A stretch of 62,062 nucleotides of DNA from Candidatus Sysuiplasma acidicola (GTDB taxonomy: Archaea; Thermoplasmatota; Thermoplasmata; Sysuiplasmatales; Sysuiplasmataceae): assembly GCA_019721035.1 (NCBI GenBank), contig JAHEAA010000013.1, forward strand, positions 1 to 62,062. The letters run 5' to 3'. Numbering within the stretch: the first letter of the stretch is position 1; the number at the start of each line of letters is the position of its first letter. Shown one piece after another: positions 11,757-61,886 of this stretch. The notes beneath the pieces were generated by a model, which ran no database searches, was not told where the DNA came from, and was given only the letters and a program-made list of their open reading frames with translations. Position numbers and translations under genes: made by a program.

Positions 11757-11831
11757 ATGCGACACCTTCCTTCACTAGCACCAACATTCATTCAGTGCAT
11801 TACGACTAATATAACTTCCCCTCTTGTGCGG

Positions 11832-12299
11832 TTAATTACCACCATGATCGATTTTGAGTGTGGGGAGTCCCGTTCGCTCATTGAGTTCTCTTCTGAAGCT
11901 GCCTGAGAAAAACTTCAGAATGGCAATTTCGTTCACATTGTTGACTATCGCACCGACGAGATGGCCGCCGAAGGAGTTGTGATCCTTCCCGCTTAGGCTC
12001 ACGTGTATATGCACCGATGGTCTGCCGCCGTCAGTTGCTATCGACCCGTGCATAGAAAGCAGTTCCGACGGATTCCCGTATCTGTCCACATTGTACTTCT
12101 TGCCGTCCCAGTATCCTATTTCTGCATCCCGCACCATGCCTATGCCGGATACAATCATACCGGCGGTGATACTCGCATGCTCGCATGCCCGAATCAGGGA
12201 CTCAACAACACCCTCTCCATCCTCGAGCGTGATTGCAATCATGTCCCCTTCTCTCACTATATTCAATGTTCCACCAGCGCCTGTTATGTGGGTGCTCAA
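11832..12299 (-). CDS. PPC-domain (DUF296) protein, putative DNA-binding
   Basis: Single-domain PPC/DUF296 protein (155 aa). It has the HIHVSLSGKDHNSFGGHL core with two conserved histidines and the GHLVGAIVNNVNEIAI strand. In plants and some prokaryotes this domain occurs beside AT-hook DNA-binding motifs. Here it stands alone, without an AT hook, as is common in archaea, and its role is unknown. It is transcribed leftward in the same direction as the aldolase operon, with about 75 nt in between that contain the aldolase promoter. Confidence 0.8.
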   Translation of the reverse strand: MSTHITGAGGTLNIVREGDMIAITLEDGEGVVESLIRACEHASITAGMIVSGIGMVRDAEIGYWDGKKYNVDRYGNPSELLSMHGSIATDGGRPSVHIHVSLSGKDHNSFGGHLVGAIVNNVNEIAILKFFSGSFRRELNERTGLPTLKIDHGGN

Positions 12300-12420
12300 T
12301 GTTAATTTTATCTGATCGTAGAGAGAATTTCAAGCACAGTCTTTACACCGCTACTTGAGGTGGCATTCCACAGCGAGCAAACCGGCAAGTTTTATTAAGC
12401 ACCGTCCAGTTTGGCTTCCG

Positions 12421-12636
12421 ATGAGTTCCGCCGAATTGGCACGTAAACTGAAGGTAGTGGGCTCGGTGATCATGATGATCATCGGACTTTCGTTCTATTA
12501 CGCATACGGAGTTGCTTACGGAGACTGGAACATGCTGCAACGCGGCAATGAAGGCGTATATGCAATATTCCTGTTCTTTTTCGGTCTTGGATTGCTCGGT
12601 TTCATAATGTTCAGGAAGAAAACATCAGTTCAGTAA
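12421..12636 (+). CDS. small two-helix membrane protein, unknown
   Basis: 71-residue protein with a basic N-terminus (ARKLK) and two hydrophobic helices (about residues 12-32 and 42-64), ending in a positively charged tail. I do not recognise a family. ATG 12421 is favoured over an in-frame start at 12355 because TATA-like GTTTTATTA at 12389-12397 sits the usual 26-30 nt upstream, giving a leaderless transcript. It is convergent with proS, with about 26 nt between stop codons. Confidence 0.65.
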   Translation: MSSAELARKLKVVGSVIMMIIGLSFYYAYGVAYGDWNMLQRGNEGVYAIFLFFFGLGLLGFIMFRKKTSVQ

Positions 12637-12662
12637 GCATGCCTGCTCCAGACGCCGGCAGT

Positions 12663-14060
12663 TCACATTGTTTTTGCGACATATACGACGTACTCCGTGG
12701 CAGCTCCACAGATGATGCATTTGCCCCCCGAGCGCTTTTCCCCCGGAATGGTTCCCAGAAGACTCGCGCCGCTCAGTTCTTCGATTTTTCTGCCACATAG
12801 CTCCAATCCGCACCACTGCATTCTGTTGTATCCGTCCTTTATGGCAGACGGATCGTGCACATCGAACTCTTTGCTCTTCACTTCTTCCTCCGCCTTCTTC
12901 AGCATAGAGGATGCCATCTCTTTAAGAAGAACACCTAGCTCGCGTATGATATCTGAAGCGCTGATGCGCGTCTTTTTACCGCTGTCGCGCCTGACTGCAG
13001 TGACAAAACCCTCGTCGATCTCTCTCTTCCCCAGTTCCAGCCTTATCGGAACGCCCTTTCTCTCCCAGTAATAGAACTTGTTTCCGGGCCTTATATCGCG
13101 TTCATCTGCATGAGCTCTCAGGCCGTGATTGTTTATGTGCTTCGCCAGCTTACGCGCTTCCGCATAGATGGATTCGGCATTGCCCTTTGCGGGAATGGGC
13201 ACCACCAGTATTTGAATTGGGGCAACAGCCGGGGGCATGACGAGTCCTTTGTCATCGCCATGTATTGCGACTACAGCGCCAAGCATTCTCTCACTCATGC
13301 CATAGGTTGTCTGATGCACTGGTTTCCTGCTTCCGTCAGTTTCTTCGAAGAATATTTCATATGGCAGGGAGAAGTTCGTCCTGTACTGATGTATTGAAGC
13401 TATCTGCAGGGCCCTGCCGTCGGGAAGCATGGTGTCTACGCCAAGCGTATAATAAGCCCCTGGGAATTTATCCCACTCAATTCTGCGAATGACCCTGTAC
13501 GGTATGCACAGATCGGCAGCCACGCTGCGCATTATATCCAGGTCCTCTTCAATTTGCGCTTCTGCCTCCTCGAATGTCGCATGACAGGTATGACCTTCTA
13601 TGAACTGTATCTCCCTGACCCTGATGAACGCCCTAGTCTGCTTAGTCTCATATCTGAAAGTGTTCACAATCTGATACACGCGAAGAGGCAGGTCGGCATG
13701 AGATCTTATCCAGAGCGAGAACACAGGATACATTGCAGTCTCGCTCGTTGGTCTGAGCAGCAGATCCACATCAAGGTCATTGCTCCCGGCCTTCGTGACC
13801 CAGAAAACCTGGGCATCAAACCCCTTGATGTGTTCCTTTTCCTTCTGAAACTGGTCTTCCGGGATGAGCAGCGGAAAATACACTTCGTCGTGACCGCGCG
13901 AATCGAATTCCCGCCTGATTGCTGCGTTTATAAGGAGCATGGTCTTCCAGCCATAGGCGGGCCAGACATTCATACCCTTGATTGGATAGCGCTTGTCAGT
14001 CAGGCCGGTTTCTTCCACAATCTCATTATACCATTCGCTGAAATCCTCTTCCTTCTTCAC
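12663..14060 (-). CDS. proS: prolyl-tRNA synthetase, archaeal/eukaryotic type
   Basis: Class IIa synthetase (465 aa) charging tRNA-Pro. Motif 2 (FRYETKQTRAFIRVREIQF), the TxE loop LLRPTSETAMYP and motif 3 with GMSERMLGA are intact. The C-terminal zinc-binding domain (WCGLELCG...CIICG) is of the archaeal/eukaryotic kind and lacks the bacterial editing insertion. Most type-3 ProRS end in tyrosine; here the tail is AKTM. The start is GTG 14060. It follows prs in the same direction, with a candidate 26-codon ORF filling the gap. Confidence 0.95.
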   Translation of the reverse strand: MKKEEDFSEWYNEIVEETGLTDKRYPIKGMNVWPAYGWKTMLLINAAIRREFDSRGHDEVYFPLLIPEDQFQKEKEHIKGFDAQVFWVTKAGSNDLDVDLLLRPTSETAMYPVFSLWIRSHADLPLRVYQIVNTFRYETKQTRAFIRVREIQFIEGHTCHATFEEAEAQIEEDLDIMRSVAADLCIPYRVIRRIEWDKFPGAYYTLGVDTMLPDGRALQIASIHQYRTNFSLPYEIFFEETDGSRKPVHQTTYGMSERMLGAVVAIHGDDKGLVMPPAVAPIQILVVPIPAKGNAESIYAEARKLAKHINNHGLRAHADERDIRPGNKFYYWERKGVPIRLELGKREIDEGFVTAVRRDSGKKTRISASDIIRELGVLLKEMASSMLKKAEEEVKSKEFDVHDPSAIKDGYNRMQWCGLELCGRKIEELSGASLLGTIPGEKRSGGKCIICGAATEYVVYVAKTM

Positions 14061-14065
14061 CTAAA

Positions 14066-14146
14066 TCACACCGGAGTGCCAGTTCCGACGCCGGAATCGA
14101 GTACTATCATGCCATCTTCGCAGACCATTGGATCGCCGCTGTTCAT
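14066..14146 (-). CDS. candidate 26-residue ORF between prs and proS
   Basis: An ATG overlaps the prs stop codon (ATGA), and the frame runs 26 codons to a TGA six bases before the proS GTG start. The peptide is acidic and glycine-rich, containing MVCEDGMIVLD and GVGTGTPV. Position and overlap are typical of translational coupling in a compact archaeal operon, so it may be a short gene or a leader peptide for proS. It could also be a chance frame. I know of no family that matches. Confidence 0.35.
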   Translation of the reverse strand: MNSGDPMVCEDGMIVLDSGVGTGTPV

Positions 14147-15012
14147 CTTTTCAGCTGGAACAGGTGTTCGGACACGATTGCCGCGACAGACACTTTTGAC
14201 GCCTCGCTCTCGATTGTGTCGGTCGATATAATCTCTTTGGCATGCTCTCTGAGCCTCGCAAGAGCGCCGTTAGTGAACTGACCATGCGTGCAGCCGGCAT
14301 ATATGGCCGATGCACCGAGTTCAGAAAGTCTCTTCATCGCAGCAAGCATGGAGCCACCTGTGGCTATTATGTCGTCCACAATGAGCACAGACTTCTTCGA
14401 AACGTCAACCTTCTTGGGATAAAGTTTAACGTTATTCGCATCTATCCTTTCCTTCAGGAAATAGTCATATTCACAGCCAAGCTGATGGGCGGCCAGTTTT
14501 GCATACTCAACAGCCCGGATTCCACCATCGGGTGAAATCACGATATCTATGCCTGCCTTGTTGTAATACCTAGCTATCAGCGGCGATGCGATGAAATTCC
14601 TTATCTTTGTCTTCCTGAAATAATTGGAAACACCTTCCGCGTGCAGGTCGATTGTTATGATTTCGTCAAATTTACCATCAAGGATGCTGGCAACAACTTC
14701 AGCACCTATCGATTCACCTTCCTTGAACAGTTTATCCTGCCTCTGATAGCCATAATAAGGTATCAGGAGCCTGACTGAATTCGGCCGTCCTCGCCTCACT
14801 GCGTCAAAAAGGAAGAGTGTTTCGATGATGCTAGAATCCGGATATGTTGCCGAAACAATAATTACGTCCTGTTTCACAACAGGAGTCAGCACCCTGACAT
14901 ACTTCTCTCCGTCCGGAAAGCACCTGATCTCTGTCGACGCCACGGTGCTTCCCGTTTCGGTTGCCAGATGAGCAGTGAGACCCCTGCTACTCGAGCCTCC
15001 GACTATAATCAC
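14143..15012 (-). CDS. prs: ribose-phosphate pyrophosphokinase
   Basis: Makes PRPP from ribose 5-phosphate and ATP for nucleotide, His and Trp synthesis (289 aa). The type-1 PRTase PRPP-binding motif VDDIIATGG is at 212-220, the catalytic flexible-loop region YYGYQRQDK near 86-94, and the metal/ATP site TIDLHAE near 120-126. Length is typical for short archaeal Prs enzymes, which lack part of the bacterial allosteric region. It is first of a leftward operon with proS. Confidence 0.95.
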   Translation of the reverse strand: MIIVGGSSSRGLTAHLATETGSTVASTEIRCFPDGEKYVRVLTPVVKQDVIIVSATYPDSSIIETLFLFDAVRRGRPNSVRLLIPYYGYQRQDKLFKEGESIGAEVVASILDGKFDEIITIDLHAEGVSNYFRKTKIRNFIASPLIARYYNKAGIDIVISPDGGIRAVEYAKLAAHQLGCEYDYFLKERIDANNVKLYPKKVDVSKKSVLIVDDIIATGGSMLAAMKRLSELGASAIYAGCTHGQFTNGALARLREHAKEIISTDTIESEASKVSVAAIVSEHLFQLKR

Positions 15013-15114
15013 AGAGAAGTTGTAATTTATTGCCTTTCTTATTATTATCGGTCAACAGTCCGCTGCGAAGCAGTGAAGCATGGTCAATTCAGGTGCATCA
15101 GCCGCGCGCCACGT

Positions 15115-15609
15115 TCAGTTCAAGCCGGATTCCTTGCCCTCCACCGGTTTGAGTTTCTTATCCAGAGCATACCATTCCAGAACACGCTGAATAATCTTCC
15201 TTGTACCGTCCAGATCAAAGCTCTCGTATTCCATCTTCGAAACCCTGATTATTCTTATGTGGCCAAGTCCTCGGAGCTCTAGCTGTTTCTGCAATTCCGT
15301 CTCGTTGAACTTCTGGTCAAAGCCGAGCGCGATGATGTCGGGTTTGAGTTCTTCAACAGTTCTGAAAATATCATCTTCGTGTCCCAGAACTGCCTTATCC
15401 ACCGGCTTAAGTGAGTTGACGAGCTGGACGCGCATGTTTCCTGGCGTTATTGGTTCGTGTTTCATACGTCGCACTGTCTTGTCCGTCGCGACGACGACGA
15501 CGAGTTCGTCACCAAGTTTCCTGGCCTCCTCCAAGTAATGAACGTGACCCAAGTGGATTATGTCAAAAACACCCGATGCCATCACGCGAATCCTATTATT
15601 TTCAGACAC
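15115..15609 (-). CDS. ribL: FAD synthetase (archaeal RibL-type cytidylyltransferase)
   Basis: Nucleotidyltransferase of the glycerol-3-phosphate cytidylyltransferase fold (164 aa) with HLGH at 19-22, SGVFDIIHLGHVHYLEEA around it and the LGFDQKF segment. Archaeal members of this size adenylate FMN to FAD. The start is uncertain: GTG 15609 is preferred because the TATA-like CTATTTACC at about 15655-15663 lies upstream. TTG 15636 and ATG 15582 are alternatives. It lies about 100 nt upstream of the prs start and may be transcribed separately. Confidence 0.85.
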   Translation of the reverse strand: MSENNRIRVMASGVFDIIHLGHVHYLEEARKLGDELVVVVATDKTVRRMKHEPITPGNMRVQLVNSLKPVDKAVLGHEDDIFRTVEELKPDIIALGFDQKFNETELQKQLELRGLGHIRIIRVSKMEYESFDLDGTRKIIQRVLEWYALDKKLKPVEGKESGLN

Positions 15610-15760
15610 ACCAACACTCAACCTGCGACGCAGCAAACGGTGAGTTGCGGGTATAGGGTAAATAGATTTCGTCTTATTCGCCTATCAGAAAGAGATGAGT
15701 TCGTTCACAGCACGATATCGCCAGTTCGGGTAAAATAGTTGATATGCAGTCTACCAACCG

Positions 15761-16828
15761 ATGGACGCAGGAATGCTTGACAGAGCGGAAACGTACGACA
15801 GAATTGACAGGGAGGATATGTTCAAGTCGATCGTCTCTCTGCCTTTTCAGCTGGAGAAAGGTTGGGAACTCGCGTCGAACCTTACGCAAGACAAGGTGAG
15901 GCATATAACATCCTCGTTCCTGATTTCCGGAATGGGCGGTTCGGCTATCGGGGGAGATCTGTTCAAAGACATCATAGACAGGTACACGTCGTTCGGGGTG
16001 AACGTGAACAGGAATTATGCCCTCCCCAAGTTGATCGGTGAAGACACGCTGCACATCGCTGTCAGTTATTCGGGAAACACGGAAGAGAGTGTGTCGAGTC
16101 TGAGAGATGCGGTGCGGAGGAGCATCCCTTCAATCGCAATTTCATCCGGGGGCGAAATGGAAAGCATCTCTAGGCAGCATGGATTGCCTTACATAAGAAT
16201 GCCGGCAGGACTTCAGCCCAGGGCTGCAGTCGGCTATATGCTAGGTACTATAATCGGCATCGCAACCAGACTGTCAATTTATGATTTTTCGAAAACCATC
16301 ATGGACGGAATTCAGGCAGCAAGAAGCACGATAGCTTCGCTTTCCAGAGATGTGCCTGAGGAAAAGAATGATGCGAAGATGATGGCTGAGTGGATAGGAG
16401 ACAGAACTCCCCTCATAGTGACGACACCCGGTCTGTATTCGCTTGGCGAGAGGATGAAGACTCAATTCAACGAGAATTCGAAGATTTTTGCGTGGCTCAG
16501 TGTGCTGCCTGAACTGAACCACAATGAATGGATACCCATGATGGAGAGCGATATTTCGCGCTACAGGATAGTACTGCTTGAAGACTGCACTGAGCATCCA
16601 CTGATGGTAAGGAGAGTGGAGGTAGTAAAGAAACTGATTTCGGCCAGGACCGAAATCAAGGTAGTGAAACTGCGTGAAGGGAATCCGCTGAGTTCGTTCA
16701 TACAGATGATGGCTCTTGGTGACATAACAAGCTACTATCTCGCGATACTGCACAATACTGACCCAACTCCGGTGGCCCCGATAGAAAGGCTGAAAAAGGA
16801 AATTTCATCATTCAGGACAATAGTGTGA
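15761..16828 (+). CDS. bifunctional phosphoglucose/phosphomannose isomerase
   Basis: SIS-fold isomerase (355 aa) interconverting fructose 6-P with glucose 6-P and mannose 6-P. GMGGSAIGGD at 57-66 and SYSGNTEES near 105 bind the sugar phosphate. ELNHNEW carries the glutamate/histidine of the Pgi/Pmi family known from Pyrobaculum, Aeropyrum and Thermoplasma. With the aldolase and PFK at 10-11.8 kb it supplies an upper glycolytic/gluconeogenic path. TATA-like TAAAATAG at 15731-15738 is 26-30 nt before ATG 15761, so the transcript is probably leaderless. Confidence 0.92.
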   Translation: MDAGMLDRAETYDRIDREDMFKSIVSLPFQLEKGWELASNLTQDKVRHITSSFLISGMGGSAIGGDLFKDIIDRYTSFGVNVNRNYALPKLIGEDTLHIAVSYSGNTEESVSSLRDAVRRSIPSIAISSGGEMESISRQHGLPYIRMPAGLQPRAAVGYMLGTIIGIATRLSIYDFSKTIMDGIQAARSTIASLSRDVPEEKNDAKMMAEWIGDRTPLIVTTPGLYSLGERMKTQFNENSKIFAWLSVLPELNHNEWIPMMESDISRYRIVLLEDCTEHPLMVRRVEVVKKLISARTEIKVVKLREGNPLSSFIQMMALGDITSYYLAILHNTDPTPVAPIERLKKEISSFRTIV

Positions 16829-53353: not shown

Positions 53354-54574
53354 TCAATGCTGGGGGTTCGCTGCTGCCTCGAAACCGAACAGACCAAAGG
53401 CAGCACACATGAGCCTGAAGTCTGCTCTGCCCTCCTTGCCTGAGAATGCACCCTTCCTGCGAGCCGCACTGGTGAGTATGCCCGCAGCGCGACCTGTATC
53501 CATATTGTTTTTCAGTGCATCCATGAAATCGTGCCACAGTGCAGTGGCGTCTGCCGCCTCCTCAGGCATCACGTCTCGTTCTCCAGACATCAGGTCTCCG
53601 GCCATACCGCACTTCCTGAGTCTGGATGCGGCATTTTCCCACTCACGGAGTGAGTCATAACTGAATTCGATGTTCTTCCTGAAATGGGATGAGAGCATGT
53701 AGAGTCTCAGTGCCTCGGGAGTGAATTCCGAGAGCAGCGTTCTTGTTGCAATGAAATTGCTGGCAGATTTAGACATCTTGTCCTGTTGAACCGTAACAAA
53801 GGCATTATGCACGTAGTGGGTAGCAAATTCCACACGACAATAGGCGTTGGAAAGAACCGAACCTACTTCATGATGCGGAAAGATCAGATCGTTTCCTCCG
53901 CCCTGGATATCCAGTTCGCATCCGAACACCTTGTGAACCATAGAAAAACACTCAAGATTCCATGAAGGGCGTCCGCCAGGGGCATACGGATTCAACGGGT
54001 CAAACTTGCCGAGCCAAATAGTGAAATCCTCCTTTTTCTCCTTCACAAAGGGGAATGTATCCGCCTCACTTCCGCATATGAGGTTGTCCAACCTGTTGTG
54101 TAAAAGAGCTCCGAATCCTCCTCCTTTTTCTGCCCTGAAATACACGTTTTCGCCAGCATTGTAAACAAGGCCTCGATCAAAGAAGCTGCATGTTATACGA
54201 TGCATCAGATCCTGTTCATCTGAAGCCCAGACATAAGTGTCAGGCTGAATAACATTCAAGCTCCCCATGTCCTGGATGAACTCGTGTGCATACCTTTTGG
54301 ATACCGAAGCCGGGCTTGTTCCCTCTTTCTTTGCTTTCCTGTCTATCTTCTCATCAACGTCAGAAAAATTCTGAAGATGCCGTACATTGTATCCATCTAG
54401 GAGCAGTGTTCTTTTGAGCGCGTCAAAGAAGATATAGCTCCGCGCATGGCCAATGTGGGGAGAATCATACACCGTTGGACCGCAGATGTACATATTGATA
54501 TTTCGGGGATTCAATCCCCTGCCTTTAACATCATCTTCCTTCCGCGTCAGTGAATTATATATCCTTACGGTCAA
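53354..54574 (-). CDS. cysS: cysteinyl-tRNA synthetase
   Basis: Class Ia synthetase (406 aa). PHIGHARSY (HIGH at 40-43), the zinc-site pieces MYICGPTVYD and SWNLECFSM, and KMSKSASNF are present. It is shorter than bacterial CysRS because the C-terminal anticodon region is reduced. TTG 54574 is preferred: GGGAAGT lies six nt upstream and TATA-like CTTTAATAT at 54610-54618 would start transcription near 54588. The more distal ATG at 54628 lies upstream of that box. The family N-terminus (VRIYNSLTRK) also begins at this point. Confidence 0.93.
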   Translation of the reverse strand: MTVRIYNSLTRKEDDVKGRGLNPRNINMYICGPTVYDSPHIGHARSYIFFDALKRTLLLDGYNVRHLQNFSDVDEKIDRKAKKEGTSPASVSKRYAHEFIQDMGSLNVIQPDTYVWASDEQDLMHRITCSFFDRGLVYNAGENVYFRAEKGGGFGALLHNRLDNLICGSEADTFPFVKEKKEDFTIWLGKFDPLNPYAPGGRPSWNLECFSMVHKVFGCELDIQGGGNDLIFPHHEVGSVLSNAYCRVEFATHYVHNAFVTVQQDKMSKSASNFIATRTLLSEFTPEALRLYMLSSHFRKNIEFSYDSLREWENAASRLRKCGMAGDLMSGERDVMPEEAADATALWHDFMDALKNNMDTGRAAGILTSAARRKGAFSGKEGRADFRLMCAAFGLFGFEAAANPQH

Positions 54575-54741
54575 ACCGTTACTTCCCTGTCTTCGACTAT
54601 CGTGACCGGATATTAAAGATTCGTCCATCCGCAGTCAAGAATGCAAACACCTGGCTACTGAGACCGGCAATATTGGAAACCGAAAGCCTGTTATAGACGG
54701 GTCAATCCATCACACTGGACTGATTTGGAAGAACGGATGAT

Positions 54742-55602
54742 TCATCCCGATTCGAGAAAACCTGCCGACAGTATTTCTGGGCCAAGGTACGGCAGGCAGC
54801 TGGAAGATCCTAAATAGCCCCTGTGGATGCGCCTGACACGCTGGAATGAAGCACCAATGTGTTCTATTGCATCAATATTCTGTTCCGGGACATAGAGGTG
54901 GATAATGCCAACGCCATCAGTGGCGGCACTTATCATGGCCGCCACGTCTGACCTCCTGCACACAAAAGGGGCAACTTCACTCCCGTATTCGGTATCCACA
55001 TAGGATGTGAAGAGATAACCGTCCACATTGCCGTCTTCGTCTCTGTGTGTGATAACATCCGAATGGTTCCTTTTGGACGAGCGTCTGAGAATATGCCCCC
55101 TAGAGCATGGAAAGTATCGCAAGTCAACCTGCTCAATAGCTGCGTCGTAGCCGTGCATAACCTCGGTGCTGTCACTGGCGTGCATTCCCCTAATCGCGAC
55201 TTCCCATAAAACGGCATCAAAATTGAAGCCCATTCGCTCATACAACGACTTGCTTCGGTCATATGCATAAAGAAGGAATGAGTTAATGCCTGACGCGCTC
55301 AGTTTCTGCATGTGTGCCTCGACGAGCATTCTACCCAGACCCTTGTTCCTTGACGAATGATCTATAATCACATTGCCTATCCATGCAGACCTATCGTAGA
55401 TGGCTGCCGTTGCCAGACCGACGGGAACACCATCCACCACAGCAATCAGGCCAGTTCCATGGTCCCCAGTTACATAAAGTTCAAGGTCATACGCAGTCAG
55501 ATACCACTTTTCCTTCTCAGTCAGAGCAATCGCGAAATCAAAGTCATTGCTTTCCAAACGCCTGAAAATGATTCCGATAATGAAAACCTCCCTGAACGAC
55601 AC
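54742..55602 (-). CDS. GNAT-family N-acetyltransferase
   Basis: About 286 aa. The acetyl-CoA motif A is in IGNVIIDHSSRNKGLGRMLVEAHMQ, and YDRSKSLYERMGF is the second GNAT motif. The following 140 residues look like a second, degenerate GNAT-like domain, as in two-domain acetyltransferases. The start is unclear: GTG 55602 is used. A strong AGGGAGG sits just inside, ahead of codons GTT-TTC-ATT-ATC without a standard start, so a rare ATT or a TTG start is possible. It lies after the four-cysteine gene on the same strand. Confidence 0.8.
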   Translation of the reverse strand: MSFREVFIIGIIFRRLESNDFDFAIALTEKEKWYLTAYDLELYVTGDHGTGLIAVVDGVPVGLATAAIYDRSAWIGNVIIDHSSRNKGLGRMLVEAHMQKLSASGINSFLLYAYDRSKSLYERMGFNFDAVLWEVAIRGMHASDSTEVMHGYDAAIEQVDLRYFPCSRGHILRRSSKRNHSDVITHRDEDGNVDGYLFTSYVDTEYGSEVAPFVCRRSDVAAMISAATDGVGIIHLYVPEQNIDAIEHIGASFQRVRRIHRGYLGSSSCLPYLGPEILSAGFLESG

Positions 55603-55624
55603 TACGAAATGCACACTGGTGAGG

Positions 55625-55798
55625 TTACAGACTGCCGGATCGCACAGGCTCCACGTCTTCTTCACTCGCGTAAATTTCGTCACATTTGTGCATCGCGAAC
55701 GTGATGTACCTGATGTCTCCCCTTGAGTTCTTTATACTGCATGGGCCGAAACCGTCGTCCTCGGCCCCGTACCATTTCCTGCAATCCTTGCATCTCAT
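55625..55798 (-). CDS. 57-residue four-cysteine small protein
   Basis: ATG 55798 to TAA 55625. C3, C6, C20 and C39 give a CxxC...C...C pattern that could bind zinc or a cluster. The body reads like a folded domain (KWYGAEDDGFGPCS, then DIRYITFAMHKCDEIYA), with an acidic tail. It is located 22 nt upstream of the GNAT gene and probably co-transcribed. The function is unknown; it may be a rubredoxin-like or zinc-ribbon protein. Confidence 0.65.
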   Translation of the reverse strand: MRCKDCRKWYGAEDDGFGPCSIKNSRGDIRYITFAMHKCDEIYASEEDVEPVRSGSL

Positions 55799-56224
55799 AG
55801 TATCTTATTGACCCATCCTGCATATTTCACATCTCCATATTTGAAGTTGATGACACTGTCACTTTTTCATTGGTGTTCCACCAGTTTCGTGACTTCTGCC
55901 AGTCGCTGCCAGCATCGGTTACATCTGTTGCCCGCACTTGCATAAAGTGTTCTTCGGGGTGGCCTGTGCTGTGCAGTTGTGCTCTTGTACCATTTTTCTG
56001 AGACACTTCCTCAATCGCGCTCGCCGTTTAATAAGCTACAGGACTGAATCGATGCCGGCAGGCTACTCGTAACCAGTACAAAGTCATGTTTTTCAGTGGA
56101 AAATTGAGAGCATTATATCAATCGCTGTCAGATGCTGCCGATCAGGGGAGTATATAATACATATGTTGTTAACATGTTACATGTAACAATCGTCTTAATA
56201 TGCTTGGTCGGAACTTTTCGCAGC
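55799..56224. other. gene-free spacer at left border of putative transport island
   Basis: 426 nt with no convincing coding frame, no tRNA and no recognisable attachment site. Near the right end lie the 12-bp palindrome GTTACATGTAAC (56176-56187) and a TATA-like CTTAATATG (56194-56202), which should drive the next gene. Confidence 0.6.
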
Positions 56225-56225
56225 A
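56176..56225 (+). promoter_or_regulatory. palindrome plus TATA promoter of RHH-like gene
   Basis: GTTACATGTAAC (56176-56187) is a perfect palindrome embedded in a longer near-palindrome starting TGTTAACATG. The TATA-like CTTAATATG begins 6 nt later and ATG 56225 follows about 25-30 nt downstream. The layout suits autoregulation by the small DNA-binding protein encoded next. Confidence 0.5.
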
Positions 56226-56575
56226 TGGACCAGGAATCTGTTTCAAAGGGTGATCTTAAAAATGGGGACACGGGTGCCGAATCCGGCACGATCGAAAAAT
56301 TCCGGCGGCTTGTCGATTTCGACGCATCAGCATGGAACGTTTTGATACGTCTAAAAGTTGAAATGGAAGACAGGCAAAACAAGATACGTGTGAGCATAAG
56401 CGATGTCGTCAATACAGTTTTGAAAGCATCGAAATCTGATAAATGCGATCCTCAGATTATCGAGAAAGTTAAAGCCGAATTGCTCAAACTCTGGGACAAT
56501 CCATCCGAGAATTTGAATGAGTTCCAGCGCGGTTTCGAGGCAGGACTCATCTATGTGCTGCAGAATATGAGGTGA
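56225..56575 (+). CDS. putative ribbon-helix-helix regulator
   Basis: 116-residue acidic protein. Residues around SAWNVLIRLKVEMEDRQNKIRVSISDVVNTVLKASK look like a strand followed by two helices, as in CopG/Arc-type ribbon-helix-helix proteins (the VSISDVVN part is typical). The C-terminal half is helical. ATG 56225 is chosen over a start at 56132, whose extra 31 residues would be hydrophobic and unrelated and would span the TATA box. As first gene before the transport operon it may be its regulator. Assignment is by eye. Confidence 0.55.
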   Translation: MDQESVSKGDLKNGDTGAESGTIEKFRRLVDFDASAWNVLIRLKVEMEDRQNKIRVSISDVVNTVLKASKSDKCDPQIIEKVKAELLKLWDNPSENLNEFQRGFEAGLIYVLQNMR

Positions 56576-56589
56576 TATCCTAAATGGTC

Positions 56590-56678
56590 TACTGAAACGC
56601 AAAATTTAATTATTATATATATTAAATATATTTCATAATATTTAAATAGTCAAATGTGACTCTGGTCACCTAGGTGAC
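56590..56678. promoter_or_regulatory. AT-rich region with palindrome before the pilin gene
   Basis: Positions 56600-56660 are almost pure A/T with alternating TA steps, followed by GTCACCTAGGTGAC (56665-56678), a perfect 14-bp palindrome. The AGGTGA within it also serves as the ribosome site for the GTG start at 56682. It may be an operator for the RHH-like protein; an origin or transfer-origin role is also possible. Confidence 0.5.
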
Positions 56679-56681
56679 ACA

Positions 56682-57029
56682 GTGTACAACACGAAACAAA
56701 AACACAAGACTGCCGTGTGGAGGAGAATACTGATTGTGTGCCTCATATTTGTACCGCTGATATCGCAAGCCGGAATCGCAGCCGCGGCCACATCGCCCCA
56801 ACAGGAGCTTGTCGGAACGCTTACGAATGTGAGAAATCTTCTTATCGCGTTGGGAACAGTTGTTGCAGCCATTGGTTATGTTATCACTGCTTATATGTGG
56901 ATGCTTAGCAACGGCAATCCCGAGCAACGATATAAGGCTAGAAAGTACTTCATGGATGTAACATTCGGCATATTCCTGCTGTTTGCCTCGACCTACCTTG
57001 TCCAACTTGCCCAATCACTGGTGGCATGA
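56682..57029 (+). CDS. VirB2/TrbC/CedA1-like pilin candidate
   Basis: 115-residue protein with a basic N-terminus, a signal-like hydrophobic stretch (ILIVCLIFVPLISQAGIAAAA) and two further helices (LLIALGTVVAAIGYVITAYMW and VTFGIFLLFASTYLVQLAQSL) joined by a short charged loop, SNGNPEQRYKARKY. This is the plan of VirB2/TrbC conjugative pilins and the archaeal CedA1-type proteins. Its position just ahead of VirB6- and VirB4-like genes supports the call. The GTG start has AGGTGA upstream. No sequence family was confirmed. Confidence 0.62.
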   Translation: MYNTKQKHKTAVWRRILIVCLIFVPLISQAGIAAAATSPQQELVGTLTNVRNLLIALGTVVAAIGYVITAYMWMLSNGNPEQRYKARKYFMDVTFGIFLLFASTYLVQLAQSLVA

Positions 57030-57032
57030 AGC

Positions 57033-57140
57033 ATGACTATGACAGTAATGTCGACCGTGCTGGATTCCTTCGTTGGGATTTTCCTGGCATTTTACACAGG
57101 CAGAGTGATCGGACTCATCAGGCAGCGACTGGTAAGGTAG
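57033..57140 (+). CDS. 35-codon membrane ORF, in frame with VirB6-like gene across one TAG
   Basis: ATG 57033 opens a frame for one hydrophobic helix (STVLDSFVGIFLAFYTGRVIG) with a basic end. It stops at TAG 57138-57140, and the next codon, in the same frame, is the GTG start of the VirB6-like gene. It may be a separate small subunit, the true N-terminus of the VirB6-like protein broken by a nonsense mutation, or a read-through site. Confidence 0.45.
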   Translation: MTMTVMSTVLDSFVGIFLAFYTGRVIGLIRQRLVR

Positions 57141-58283
57141 GTGGCCACACTGTCGATATCATCCATGTTCACTGCGCCGCTGACATCTATGTTGAGAAGC
57201 GCGCTGACGGCAGTCCTGAAAGCGATAGTGCCTGCACTCACCGTGAGTACTTCCCTGTTCAACGGTGGCGTATACGACACTTGGTGTGCGGTGCTTGTCG
57301 TCTCTTATGCAATATCGTCGCTGTTTCTTATCGCAATCGCCTACTCTTATCTCACCGGTCGGGCACTGGGGCACTTTCGAGGTACAACTGGTTCTCTTAC
57401 AAATTTGTCGATAACACTCGTCCTGATGCCCTTCACGCTCTTCATCTGTCAGCTGCTGCTCGATGTAAACGACGCCATGACATCTTTTGTGATACCATAT
57501 TCACACATATCCTCCTATTCATCCATGGTTACTCAAAGCTTGGGCGGATACAGTCTTTTTACGCTGCTCATTCTCTCGGTCGTTGTTGCGCTCCTGTACC
57601 TTATGCTAGTTGTGAGGGTGCTGCTGGTATTCTTCCTCGCGTCACTTATGCCCATACTTTGCCTCTGTTATTCGCTAGAATGGACAAGATCCTTCGCCGA
57701 AAAAATGATTTCACTTCTGATTGAGATGTCGTTCCTGCCTTTCTTTGTCTCCGTTGCCCTCAGAATAGGCATTTCAGCTTCATACTCGACGATACATTCT
57801 CTGCAAGTGGTACCGCTGATAATTGCTGGTACATACCTGCTGCCGCTCATGATACCGTTCATTATGTCGCCAGGAGGATCCAGAATCCTCCAGTATATGG
57901 GACTGCCGCCGGTTTCAGCTGTGATTACCGGAGCAATTGCGGTTGGCGTGGGCGCCGCCGCTAGCGTCACAGGCAGGATAGCACCGCCCTTCAAATCAGC
58001 CCTGAGCCGAAGCGGGCCAAATCGCTCAGCCGCAGGCGCCGGCAGCGCAGCAACAAAAGCCATTCCTAGAAAATCGATTACCACAGGAATCATGCATTCG
58101 TCTGGAATGGCGCAGATGTCTGCAGGAATTGATGCAAAGATATTGCCAGGGCAGAATAAAGCCCTGGAACTCAGAGTGCAAAAAGGATCGTCTTACGTGA
58201 AACGAGTACGCGCACGTGTCTCTGAAAATAAACGTGTCCGACCTCACAAAATTTATCCAGGGAAGGATGCTAAACATGATTGA
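57141..58283 (+). CDS. VirB6/TrbL/CedA-like polytopic membrane protein
   Basis: 380-residue protein with about seven hydrophobic helices in residues 1-280 and a basic, Ser/Ala/Gly-rich cytoplasmic tail of about 100 residues. The topology and central LMLVVRVLLVFFLASLMPILCL region resemble VirB6/TrbL components that form the inner-membrane channel of type IV secretion systems, and CedA of the archaeal DNA-import system. GTG 57141 follows directly on an in-frame TAG. A +1-frame alternative of similar length (57026-57724) is less membrane-like and is rejected. Confidence 0.68.
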   Translation: MATLSISSMFTAPLTSMLRSALTAVLKAIVPALTVSTSLFNGGVYDTWCAVLVVSYAISSLFLIAIAYSYLTGRALGHFRGTTGSLTNLSITLVLMPFTLFICQLLLDVNDAMTSFVIPYSHISSYSSMVTQSLGGYSLFTLLILSVVVALLYLMLVVRVLLVFFLASLMPILCLCYSLEWTRSFAEKMISLLIEMSFLPFFVSVALRIGISASYSTIHSLQVVPLIIAGTYLLPLMIPFIMSPGGSRILQYMGLPPVSAVITGAIAVGVGAAASVTGRIAPPFKSALSRSGPNRSAAGAGSAATKAIPRKSITTGIMHSSGMAQMSAGIDAKILPGQNKALELRVQKGSSYVKRVRARVSENKRVRPHKIYPGKDAKHD

Positions 58284-58926
58284 AAATGAATTCACTCCGC
58301 CGGATCTGTCTTATGAGCCGGGCGTAATAGGACCATTCCTGCCAGCAGACATACTCATTTTCTCGTTGGCGTGCGCGATTGGTTTTTCCGCAGCCCAATT
58401 CAACGTCGGAATGCGATATGCTGTCATGCTGCCGTTCGCAATATCAGGCTTCGTCCTCATCACGATCAAGAGACTCCGCCCCGATGCCATGAGGACGTTC
58501 ACAGACTTCCTTGCGTATGCAGTCGCCGATAGATTTCGGGTGAGATATTTAAACACGCACGGAACAGGGAGTAAGCAGCGTATCGCCTCCCCTTCATTCA
58601 TACTTGAGGAGATAAATTTCATTTCTGCAGGCCAGAGGGAAAGGGAACGTTTTGCTTCTGCATTCCTCGGTGTGTGCTGCGTGCCGGGATGCCCTATAAA
58701 CTTCATTTCCCTTCCCTCAGGAGCATATATCAGCAACCAGCCGGTAGAAGGTGAACAACCAGGGGAGTCGCGCAGCGGTGCGAACGACTGGACGGGCAGA
58801 AAATTTGTTGTGACTGTAACATCAGTTGAGCAGAGGTCGTACGTAACACTGCTTTCTGGGAAGTCGAAGCCAATGTACGTCAGGGAGAAAAACTCCATGA
58901 TAATGGCGACAAGGACGTGGAGGTGA
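58276..58926 (+). CDS. PrgI/VirB3-like membrane protein
   Basis: 216-residue protein with two adjacent hydrophobic helices (about 22-62: PADILIFSLACAIGFSA and YAVMLPFAISGFVLITI) followed by a soluble 140-residue domain. Two N-terminal helices ahead of a VirB4 gene are characteristic of PrgI/VirB3-like proteins that anchor the ATPase; the long C-terminal domain is larger than in VirB3. ATG 58276 has GGAAGG upstream and overlaps the previous gene by 8 nt. Confidence 0.6.
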   Translation: MIENEFTPPDLSYEPGVIGPFLPADILIFSLACAIGFSAAQFNVGMRYAVMLPFAISGFVLITIKRLRPDAMRTFTDFLAYAVADRFRVRYLNTHGTGSKQRIASPSFILEEINFISAGQRERERFASAFLGVCCVPGCPINFISLPSGAYISNQPVEGEQPGESRSGANDWTGRKFVVTVTSVEQRSYVTLLSGKSKPMYVREKNSMIMATRTWR

Positions 58927-58933
58927 TGTTGAT

Positions 58934-60664
58934 ATGATATTCCATACGAGAAGGTTTGGCGGACCGAGGTATATCGGGCCCTCATCTATAGTTGGTCCAC
59001 GCTGGTTGAGGAGAGGAGGGACATACGTGGCATACATCGCAGTCAGGAGCGTTCCTTACAACTTGCCTGAGAATTTTGTTCAATCAATCATGCAGAGATT
59101 TGAATATTCTGGAGCATCGGTTTCTGTCTACAGGGTTTCGAGGACAGATGCACTTTCACGCCTGGACAGAGCTGCGACCAGATACGGAGCAGAGCTGGCC
59201 TACAGGCTCGAATCAGGAAAACAGACCGCGTCGCTTGCCGACCTTCATTCTAGAATTACAGAATTGAGAGATGCTGTAGCCGCAGATTGCGCATATCTCA
59301 TCGATGCCGCAATTGTTTTCTCCGTTACAGGGATGAGCGTTGAGGAAACAGAGGTGAGAATTAAATCAATAGAATCAGAACTCAAAACCAACGGTATCGG
59401 TGTCCACTCTGGCCGATATATTCAGCGAAAACTGGCCAGAATGTTCGACACAGACGTGCCACCGGTTTTTCCCTTCATTGTGAGCCTCACGGAACGCTCT
59501 CTGCCCGCATTAATGCCATTCACACAGACACCGTTGATACAGCCTGGCGGCACTCTGCTTGGCACTGACACAGCCGACGGATCACCGGTGATCCTGAACA
59601 GATTCGCCGGGACAAACTTCAACACCATCATTATGGGAAAGAGCGGCAGCGGAAAGAGTTACTTTGCAAAACTTATGATACTCAGGGAAGCGGTGAAACA
59701 CAGATCCAGTTACTACATTTTGGATCCGCTTGGTGAGTTCATGCAGACAGCACTTTTCCTCGGCGGCGTGCATCGTTCGATTGGAAGCGAAGGACTGGGC
59801 GCCGGGAGTGTTATAGTTTCACATTCCGCCGCCATAGTATCCAACGCCGTCGAGCTTGTATGCAGGGCAGTGCAGCTGAATGCTCAGGAGAGTGCAACAG
59901 TCAGGAATCTCTTCTATGGCCAAGCGACAATGAAGCCCGGAGATACCGTCGCGCAGACCTTTTCAGCTGTTTACGCAAGCCTGGTTCAGAGCGGTGCAAC
60001 AGACATTTCCAGAAGGCTCAACAGGGCACTCTCCGGCGATCTATCTTTCATTCTCTCTGGCGAGGTACCGAAACCCAGCGTGGCACGTGTCACCGTCTAT
60101 GATTACTCACTCATCGATTCCGGATTGAAATCGGCAGTCGCTCAATTCCTGCTGGAAACAGTATTTGAATTGTGCAAGTACGCAGACGGCACGAAGACCT
60201 TGGTAATAGACGAGGCATGGAGATTCAGCGATGATGAAAGACTGAGAGCTGCACTTTCGCGCACGATGCGTCATTCGAGACACTACAACCTAGCCATAAT
60301 GCTTCTGACACAGAACATTTCGGATGTAACGAGCGGCGCGTTCACGAACGGCATATTGAACAATACGGATTCCTGCTTCATCTTCCGTCATGAGGACGGT
60401 GCAGCGACGTTGCCGGAAGATTATCAGATCGCGCCGGAGGAAAGGGATTTTGTGAACAGCTTCACGCCGCGCGAAGCCAGGAAGAGCAGGTGTATAATGG
60501 TCGCGGCAGGAAGAAAGGTGAAGTTGGAGATAGAATCCAGCATCGGCGAATTCAGCCTTTGCAATTCAGAAGCGCTGGGAGCATGCAGCGTCTTTCAATT
60601 CATTTGTTTGCTTGCAGGAGAGACTCTGGACAAAATCGATTGTATGCTTGCGGAGGCATTTTGA
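58934..60664 (+). CDS. VirB4/HerA-type secretion ATPase, short form
   Basis: AAA+ type ATPase (576 aa) powering DNA or protein transfer. Walker A GKSGSGKS is at 235-242, Walker B TLVIDEAW at 422-429, and the sensor glutamine in LLTQN at 460. The arginine-rich RTMRHSRHYN matches VirB4/TraC-like enzymes. The N-terminal domain (about 230 residues) is much shorter than in bacterial VirB4 (about 800 aa in total), closer to CedB-like and PrgJ-like forms. The stop overlaps the next start by one base. Confidence 0.85.
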   Translation: MIFHTRRFGGPRYIGPSSIVGPRWLRRGGTYVAYIAVRSVPYNLPENFVQSIMQRFEYSGASVSVYRVSRTDALSRLDRAATRYGAELAYRLESGKQTASLADLHSRITELRDAVAADCAYLIDAAIVFSVTGMSVEETEVRIKSIESELKTNGIGVHSGRYIQRKLARMFDTDVPPVFPFIVSLTERSLPALMPFTQTPLIQPGGTLLGTDTADGSPVILNRFAGTNFNTIIMGKSGSGKSYFAKLMILREAVKHRSSYYILDPLGEFMQTALFLGGVHRSIGSEGLGAGSVIVSHSAAIVSNAVELVCRAVQLNAQESATVRNLFYGQATMKPGDTVAQTFSAVYASLVQSGATDISRRLNRALSGDLSFILSGEVPKPSVARVTVYDYSLIDSGLKSAVAQFLLETVFELCKYADGTKTLVIDEAWRFSDDERLRAALSRTMRHSRHYNLAIMLLTQNISDVTSGAFTNGILNNTDSCFIFRHEDGAATLPEDYQIAPEERDFVNSFTPREARKSRCIMVAAGRKVKLEIESSIGEFSLCNSEALGACSVFQFICLLAGETLDKIDCMLAEAF

Positions 60665-61380
60665 TGGTAACGAGACACCACGCGGACGGCAGAACTGGAA
60701 CAATTGAGAATTTTTTAGCAATAATGCGACTCTGGCTTGCCGAAGTGAGAGGGGAACTGGCAGAAGCAGTCTCCATACTCTCGAGTGATGGACTCTGTGG
60801 CAACTGGTGGGCAGACCAGGTGAGGAAGAATTTGGAATGCAACGATGGGCCATCAGCAGAAATCGCAGATATATACGGAGCAGACGAACCGGCCACGTTG
60901 CTGGAGATAGCGTTCTGGTCCGGTTGGCTAAAAGGAGAGAAGGATACAATGGAGCGCATAACTAGGGTGGCAAACGAAATACAGGAAAGTCCTAAGAGGG
61001 CAGCATCAGGATCCACACTCGCTTCATTTGGCCTAAAAATGTCTGGAAACGGAAGACAGAATGAGGAAGCAGCAGTTGCTACAATGGCGTCTGAAATAGT
61101 TGCGGAAATTGAAAAGAGGAATTACAGACCTGAAACTGAAATGATTTCGATATCTCTCTCTGCAGCCATCGACTCGGGACGCTTTGAGGAGAACACACTC
61201 GCGTTGGAAACGATCTCATATCTCGATGATTTTGTTGCCAACGGTTCAAGCGCATCGCTAACCATGCTGTCATTCAACTGTGGTCTGCTTGCCGGAAAGA
61301 CCATTCAGGCAGCCAGAAACAGAGCAGGTTCCGGTTTCATCGTTGGTACGGGCGGCGAGGAGGGAGCGGGATGGCATTAA
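60664..61380 (+). CDS. helical protein of the transport island, unknown
   Basis: 238 residues, soluble, mainly helical, with no transmembrane segment. It contains two similar halves, each with a motif of the type E-x-A-FWSGWLKGE/FNCGLLAGKT near its end, suggesting an internal duplication. ATG 60664 overlaps the VirB4 stop and the end overlaps the next gene by 10 nt, so it belongs to the operon. No family recognised. It may be a cytoplasmic partner of the ATPase. Confidence 0.65.
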   Translation: MVTRHHADGRTGTIENFLAIMRLWLAEVRGELAEAVSILSSDGLCGNWWADQVRKNLECNDGPSAEIADIYGADEPATLLEIAFWSGWLKGEKDTMERITRVANEIQESPKRAASGSTLASFGLKMSGNGRQNEEAAVATMASEIVAEIEKRNYRPETEMISISLSAAIDSGRFEENTLALETISYLDDFVANGSSASLTMLSFNCGLLAGKTIQAARNRAGSGFIVGTGGEEGAGWH

Positions 61381-61886
61381 AAATGCAAATAACAGCGAGA
61401 CCGACTGTCCTGCCATACTTATCGATCAGTGTCCTGTTGTCTATCATTGCGGGTATTCAATTTAATATCACTTCTCCTCTACTGCAGATGTTCTTCCATA
61501 GCATGCCTCAAGCAGCGTATTATCTGGAAGTGATGGTCATCTTCCTGCTTTGCGCAATCCCGATGATCCTGTGGCGATTCACATTCTTCGTTCTAGATGC
61601 GGAATCTCTGCAGCTTTGCAGTTTCACCTTGCCATTCATGAAGAAGAGAGTCAATTTGAACACAATACACCACATAAGGGTTGAGAGGAGTGGTCCCCTT
61701 TCTGGGATCACCGGATCCAGGAGAGTTGAATTCATCGACGGCAGAGGAAAGACTGTGTTCGAATGGAACTCGGTCCGAATGAACGATGAACTGTTGAAAA
61801 GACTAAGAAGGACGTCACTCTTGCTTCTTTCAGAACACAGAGTCAACTCCAGTATTGAGACGAAAAGACCTACGGAAGAATTTTAA
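61371..61886 (+). CDS. membrane protein with PH-like domain
   Basis: 171 residues: two N-terminal helices (about 13-30 and 52-70) and a C-terminal beta-rich part (RFTFFVLDAESLQLCSFTLP, VNLNTIHHIRVERSG, RRVEFIDGRGKTVFEW) typical of bacterial PH-like (bPH2/YdbT) domains. It overlaps the upstream gene. It is probably the last clear gene of the operon in view, and its role is unknown. Confidence 0.6.
   Translation: MALKMQITARPTVLPYLSISVLLSIIAGIQFNITSPLLQMFFHSMPQAAYYLEVMVIFLLCAIPMILWRFTFFVLDAESLQLCSFTLPFMKKRVNLNTIHHIRVERSGPLSGITGSRRVEFIDGRGKTVFEWNSVRMNDELLKRLRRTSLLLLSEHRVNSSIETKRPTEEF

Follow-up and report, generated by a model that had tools for sequence, protein, structure and literature searches.

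Why does the chromosome of an acidophilic archaeon from acid mines carry a compact set of conjugation-type genes, and what might they move? This question is raised by the right-hand end of the stretch of Candidatus Sysuiplasma acidicola DNA analysed here (the window: the entire contig G000:C13, 62,062 bases, of a genome of ∼2 Mb), where a preliminary description had noticed seven tightly packed rightward genes resembling a VirB2-VirB6-VirB3-VirB4 transport operon. We compared these genes with their counterparts in the Sysuiplasma family (8 genomes in two genera) and in 250 sampled Thermoplasmata in all. The answer that we favour, with a probability of about 0.58, is that the operon encodes a minimal type IV secretion system (T4SS) that is resident in the chromosome and inherited with it, and whose most likely function is to carry DNA from cell to cell in these archaea. 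New here is a 21-bp operator that is found at the operon and, elsewhere in the eight family genomes, only at a gene for a VirD4/TrwB-like coupling ATPase.

The operon encodes the core of a T4SS

All seven open reading frames (ORFs) named earlier are present on the plus strand at about the positions first proposed, and the compact VirB2-VirB6-VirB3-VirB4 order was supported by Pfam for the pilin, VirB6 and VirB4, and by profile comparisons together with gene fusions and splits in relatives for VirB3/PrgI. The pilin matched TrbC (PF04956, 6.7e-9) and T4SS_pilin (PF18895, 3.9e-7), and both families were recognised in 7/7 members scanned. The VirB6 protein, which has seven hydrophobic segments and is 41–71% identical across the family, matched TrbL (PF04610) in six of the seven members (best 1.1e-6); hhalign against two single bacterial TrbL-type sequences gave no match.

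By sequence comparison, the ATPase is closest to the VirB4 proteins of Gram-positive and mycoplasma conjugation systems, and not to CedB. It matched AAA_10 in Pfam (6e-10), its best sequence match in the PDB was the Thermoanaerobacter VirB4 4ag5 (3.3e-23), and hhalign to Bacillales VirB4 gave 100%. Among the NCBIfam models, on which the comparison with CedB is based (our tree holds no CedB/TedB sequences), the VirB4 of mycoplasma integrative and conjugative elements (ICEs) scored 5e-27, CD1110 VirB4 3e-23 and CedB 5e-7, the last corresponding to 28.7 bits against a cut-off of 700. The likeness to minimal Gram-positive T4SS that had been noticed is thus borne out by these matches and by the PrgI profiles, whereas the close tie to Ced is not.

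The gene preceding virB4 (g4) had been taken for a PrgI-like gene. This holds for its first part; an extra domain, the N-terminal part of VirB4, had been overlooked. In Bacillales plasmids, the gene for PrgI, or for a small protein that replaces it, is followed by a separate gene for 230–330 amino acids (aa) and then by VirB4. Using hhalign, the first part of g4 matched the Bacillales PrgI set at 60.8% with the family profile alone and at 88.7% with the pooled profile. The second part matched the separate middle gene at 98.4% with outside homologs, at 97.5% when pooled and at 0.6% with the family profile alone; the link to the middle gene therefore runs through the outside homologs. The same slot in other Thermoplasmata holds proteins of ∼190–260 aa, and a comparison of their profile with that of the family gave 95.5%. 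All other g4 profile pairings remained at ≤1%, and Pfam by itself gave VirB3/PrgI at only 0.062. Among 24 loci of the Thermoplasma-like family f17, the VirB4 ORF is mostly 630–706 aa long with N-terminal hydrophobic segments, which corresponds to g4 and VirB4 as one chain, and in others the two are split at the same point (∼230+460 or 245+530 aa). Because of these profile matches, fusions and splits, g4 is best read as VirB3/PrgI joined to a detached N-terminal part of VirB4. An AlphaFold2 model of the VirB3-like protein, built with 6–7 homologs, had a mean pLDDT of 48.

The operon is inherited at one fixed place

Each of the eight family genomes, from both genera, has the T4SS operon once and at the same location. 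A GNAT gene adjoins it in all eight, and cysS was observed in seven, where the contig reaches. The gene set from the pilin to g7 could be read completely in seven genomes, the contig of G007 stopping inside virB4. In the VirB4 tree, the Sysuiplasma family forms one clade (100/99) that is split as the genera are; its join with f17 is supported at only 89/96. No integrase or relaxase was found beside the operon. The single copy, the fixed locus and a VirB4 tree that follows the genera lead us to regard the operon as a domesticated chromosomal trait and not a mobile element; the preliminary description had left the choice between conjugative and domesticated open, and had looked to synteny in relatives, which is conserved.

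All the products are under purifying selection, with ratios of nonsynonymous to synonymous divergence (dN/dS) of 0.03–0.21 for the seven named genes (window versus G003), so that the operon is not a chance assembly. Constraint is tightest on the pilin (0.03), whose synonymous divergence resembles that of the adjoining genes; its high identity is therefore due to selection and not to recent transfer.

An operator is shared with an unlinked coupling ATPase

In the window, the operator lies 36 nt upstream of the ATG of gene 1, the first gene of the operon. Its consensus, GTTAACMTGTTACATGTAACA (M = A or C), was observed upstream of the operon in 8/8 genomes, in seven of them with ≤3 mismatches and in G003 with 4. 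A search of the eight genomes at ≤3 mismatches returned the operon sites, one of which was also read on the opposite strand, plus a single additional site in each of G000, G003 and G004; a reversed-pattern control on the same genomes gave no sites. All three further sites stand upstream of the same type of gene, encoding a P-loop ATPase of ∼832–835 aa where complete. By eye, the operator is located a few nucleotides upstream of a TATA-like box at the operon and ATPase loci alike, which suggests an activator. As a near-identical operator precedes both, the coupling ATPase looks co-regulated with the operon.

TrwB_AAD_bind scored above its cut-off in the unlinked ATPase of 6/8 genomes, with CedD and HerA models scoring similarly; in NCBIfam, similarity was to the CedD (1e-8), HerA and VirD4 models. 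The protein also matched, at 1e-17, the ATPase of the conjugative plasmid pT33-3, which is described as encoding VirB4- and VirD4-like proteins required for its conjugation (PMC12857230). A search with PF02534 had returned mostly short P-loop matches, and the gene was found via the operator. The preliminary description had seen no coupling ATPase, which is correct for the locus and not for the rest of the genome. Across the class, the genomes with both VirB4 and the coupling ATPase number 72, where 28 would be expected (uncorrected for phylogeny). The copies in G002 and G005 are cut by contig ends.

The coupling-ATPase regions of G000 and G003 (L148 13881-15398 and L149 2466-3983) share 96% DNA identity and have different flanks. 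The match stops ∼30 bp past the operator, and the T4SS genes of the two genomes differ by ∼30% in protein. This identity may be due to recent transfer or to cross-binning of metagenome-assembled genomes (MAGs). A mobile cassette of coupling ATPase and operator was considered on the same grounds; G005, however, shares coupling-ATPase neighbours with G000, and a transposase-like gene beside the G000 operator may explain the break in the flank. A second, broken copy lies beside the operator-bearing one (L148, G000:C27, 9401-11298), with two small winged-helix-like genes near it.

Remaining genes of the locus

The features of the locus are collected in Table 1. The junctions, given as 1–20 nt before, are wider between gene 1 and the pilin (106 nt) and between the pilin and VirB6 (111 nt). 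The second gap holds a 35-codon ORF that had been missed. The same slot in 8/8 genomes comprises ∼110–120 nt encoding ∼33–36 aa; the peptide has a single hydrophobic helix, and its tail is charged. Its dN/dS was 0.30 and 0.32 in two independent pairs (only 34–35 codons), a weaker constraint than on the other genes. A palindrome directly 5' of the pilin start, GTCACCTAGGTGAC (56661-56676), was ruled out as a conserved site on comparison with relatives. Gene 1 occurs in 4/4 genomes of the genus to which the window belongs (39–64% identity) and was not found outside it; its description as a ribbon-helix-helix (RHH) protein received no support from Pfam, where the best match was F-112 (E=0.098).

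Table 1. Features of the T4SS locus in the window
Feature	Positions	Strand	Length	Remarks
cysS	53354-54628	-		flank marker of the fixed locus, outside the system
GNAT gene	54742-55683	-		divergent flank marker of the fixed locus, outside the system
Operator	56168..56188	+	21 bp	GTTAACATGTTACATGTAACA; half-site and 14-bp palindrome
Gene 1	56225..56575	+	116 aa	possible small DNA-binding protein (RHH-like by eye)
VirB2/TrbC-type pilin	56682..57029	+	115 aa	GTG start; signal-like N-terminus and two hydrophobic helices
35-aa peptide gene	57033..57140	+	35 codons	one hydrophobic helix, charged tail
VirB6/TrbL-type pore protein	57141..58283	+	380 aa	polytopic; GTG start, later start possible
g4	58276..58926	+	216 aa	VirB3/PrgI (two transmembrane segments) fused to detached N-terminal part of VirB4, best reading
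VirB4 ATPase	58934..60664	+	576 aa	intact Walker motifs
g6	60664..61380	+	238 aa	family-specific; predicted all-helical soluble protein
g7	61371..61886	+	171 aa	bPH_2 (YdbS-like) membrane protein, two transmembrane segments

The two trailing genes had been described as lacking counterparts. For g6 none was recognised: it is conserved in seven family genomes and was found in no other of the 250 sampled. Its AlphaFold2 model (6–7 homologs) is all-helix, at a low mean pLDDT of 50. An internal repeat in g6, or a similarity of gene 1 to g6 suggested by like FxxGxxxGL motifs, was unsupported on comparison. A second, partial g6 copy lies apart from the operon in a relative (G002:C6:74424-74696, E=6e-30). 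The product of g7 does have relatives; its PH-like nature, already suspected, was supported by hhalign (95.1% to a bPH_2 protein). As the window's contig ends at 62062, the sequence farther right could be read only in relatives, where, contig permitting, the operon is followed by another bPH_2 membrane protein on the same strand (1.8e-5; L018 237-1076 and equivalents in L019-L023) and by a DNA topoisomerase I-like gene (named by eye). The place of this bPH_2 protein falls beyond the end of the window's contig, and a paralogous relation of g7 to it was unsupported on comparison.

The core extends to other Thermoplasmata

The pilin profile matched 8/8 family genomes and only 1/242 others; in a scan of named genomes, its matches were Candidatus Sysuiplasma superficiale and 'Thermoplasmata archaeon' MAGs. 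The VirB4 profile, on the other hand, matched 90 of the 250 Thermoplasmata genomes. In the Thermoplasma-like family f17, the pilin, VirB6 and VirB4 occur together in 22 of the 24 loci read, and no VirB6 ORF was found in the remaining two (L028 and L104). The pilin-VirB6-VirB3/VirB4 core is thus present in Thermoplasma-like genomes, with VirB3 and VirB4 often fused. Viral contigs searched with VirB6 gave no match.

Two further kinds of locus were observed. Genomes of family f9 (L090-L095) contain multiple copies of a related VirB4 gene (ORFs of 860–1447 aa); these form a separate clade and have the appearance of mobile elements. In L025 (G019, 11826-16685), another Thermoplasmata VirB6/VirB4 cluster is adjoined by an array of several genes whose products have a pilin-like C-terminus and a larger N-terminal domain that appears to be extracellular.

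How the system might work, and what else it might be

For a DNA-transferring T4SS we envisage the following. A regulator binding the consensus just upstream of the TATA box would switch on the operon and the coupling-ATPase locus together. The nearly invariant pilin would form a thin mating pilus, VirB4 and VirB3/4N would act beneath the VirB6 pore, and the 35-aa peptide and the PH protein may be accessory membrane subunits. The coupling ATPase would feed in or pull in single-stranded DNA, made by a nuclease instead of a classical relaxase, and the transferred DNA would be used for recombination. The DNA cargo, the pilus, the co-regulation and the use in recombination are what we infer from sequence; Ced and Ted provide a precedent for a domesticated T4SS in archaea (PMC9905601).

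Several observations weigh against this reading. Relaxase PF03432 was absent from six family genomes and three others, other MOB families being unsearched. The operator stands at the coupling ATPase in only three genomes, copies of this gene without operator occur (G003:C39, G003:C230 and G007:C67), and the gene was not detected in G001 and G006, both MAGs. Several other VirB4-bearing Thermoplasmata gave no match to the coupling ATPase, and no DNA-repair gene in the eight genomes shares the operator; nor was any tie to the regulation of DNA repair observed.

At its C-terminus, the coupling ATPase has a conserved PD...EVE...K region, PD-(D/E)XK-like by eye only and without a Pfam match. A class-wide, relaxase-free chromosomal mating system of the Thermoplasmata, in which this C-terminus acts as a nuclease preparing the DNA and the dedicated operator switches motor and pore, is an extension that we hold to be rather doubtful.

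Protein export by a resident T4SS, or a role limited to that of a contact or adhesion pilus, as has been considered for the chromosomal T4SS of Patescibacteria, is possible though unlikely. That no PF03432 relaxase was found would fit it, as would the mostly relaxase-less Patescibacteria systems (PMC12102498) and the accessory genes g6 and g7, which have no counterparts in DNA-transfer systems; however, no effector-like genes lie beside the operon, and the operator-linked ATPase resembles conjugation coupling proteins, a point that is not decisive as such proteins also serve protein secretion. We consider a conjugative plasmid, an integrative element or a recent remnant of one improbable: every core part is of the conjugation type and the multi-copy VirB4 loci of f9 are related, but the single fixed copy in two genera, the absence of an adjoining integrase or relaxase and a family VirB4 clade apart from the plasmid set argue against it. 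A pure DNA importer, analogous to Ced and controlled by DNA damage, in which the coupling ATPase would have some other task, appears quite improbable; the domesticated VirB2/VirB6/VirB4 set is shared with Ced/Ted (PMC9905601) and the matches of the coupling ATPase include CedD, a protein of DNA import (PMC11868833), but VirB4 is not CedB-like and the operator marks no DNA-repair gene. That the ATPase is an ordinary repair enzyme of HerA/NurA type with unrelated membrane genes next to it, a placement that the preliminary description named among its refuting outcomes, is refuted as far as sequence allows, since the HerA domain DUF87 (4e-7) and HerA in the PDB (1e-4) match far more weakly than VirB4, no nurA-like Pfam match occurs among the operon products, and the pilin and VirB6 are recognised.

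Comparison with known systems

The DNA-transferring T4SS favoured here shares the VirB4 and PrgI families with the MPF_FATA systems of monoderms (pCF10 prgH-I-J, Bacillales plasmids and mycoplasma ICE), the VirB6-VirB3-VirB4 order with prgH-I-J, and the detached N-terminal part of VirB4 with the Bacillales plasmids. Unlike these, it is chromosomal, fixed and archaeal, VirB1/VirB8 and a relaxase were not seen in the operon, its VirB3 is fused to the VirB4 N-part, and it has the family-specific g6 and the PH protein. Ced (Sulfolobales) and Ted (Thermoproteales) are likewise domesticated chromosomal VirB2/VirB6/VirB4 sets with no relaxase reported, and the signal-like N-terminus of the Sysuiplasma pilin resembles that of TedC (PMC9905601). 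The Sysuiplasma system differs from them in a VirB4 for which FATA-type models give far better scores than CedB does, in VirB3/PrgI and the operator-linked coupling ATPase, and in having no known Ups-like link or damage control. As the ATPase is not CedB by the tested model, we file the system as a variant of the FATA-like T4SS that may work like Ced/Ted.

The T4SS of Patescibacteria are also FATA-related and chromosomal, with VirB2 pilins, mostly no relaxase and a coupling ATPase usually far from virB4 (PMC12102498); they are bacterial and often have pilin arrays, and this comparison was made without a phylogeny. In Cuniculiplasma, a VirB4-containing cluster (CSP5_1185-1189) and a VirD4-family ATPase elsewhere were noted as T4SS components, and that genome paper names no pilin, VirB6 or VirB3 (PMC5155288). 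These components probably represent the same core in its Thermoplasma-like form, which differs from that of Sysuiplasma in the fused VirB3/VirB4 and in being without g6.

Implications

According to a 2023 report, domestication of conjugation machinery as in Ced/Ted was not known from any other organism (PMC9905601), and the Sysuiplasma operon would extend it beyond these two systems. It would also place PrgI/VirB3 in a chromosomal archaeal T4SS; VirB3 homologs have been stated to be absent in archaea (PMC11868833), and VirB3 has been listed in thaumarchaeal ICEs (PMC6563490). The operator would supply a regulatory site linking the pore and the coupling motor.

Recombination is intense in the Ferroplasma populations of acid mine drainage (PMC2704941), and the papers that we consulted name no machine moving DNA between Thermoplasmata cells. 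With a conserved chromosomal T4SS in Sysuiplasma and a related core in Thermoplasma-like organisms, some of them cultivated, the idea of DNA transfer in Thermoplasmata becomes testable. A T4SS together with an apparently co-regulated coupling motor suggests that these cells have a built-in way to exchange DNA.

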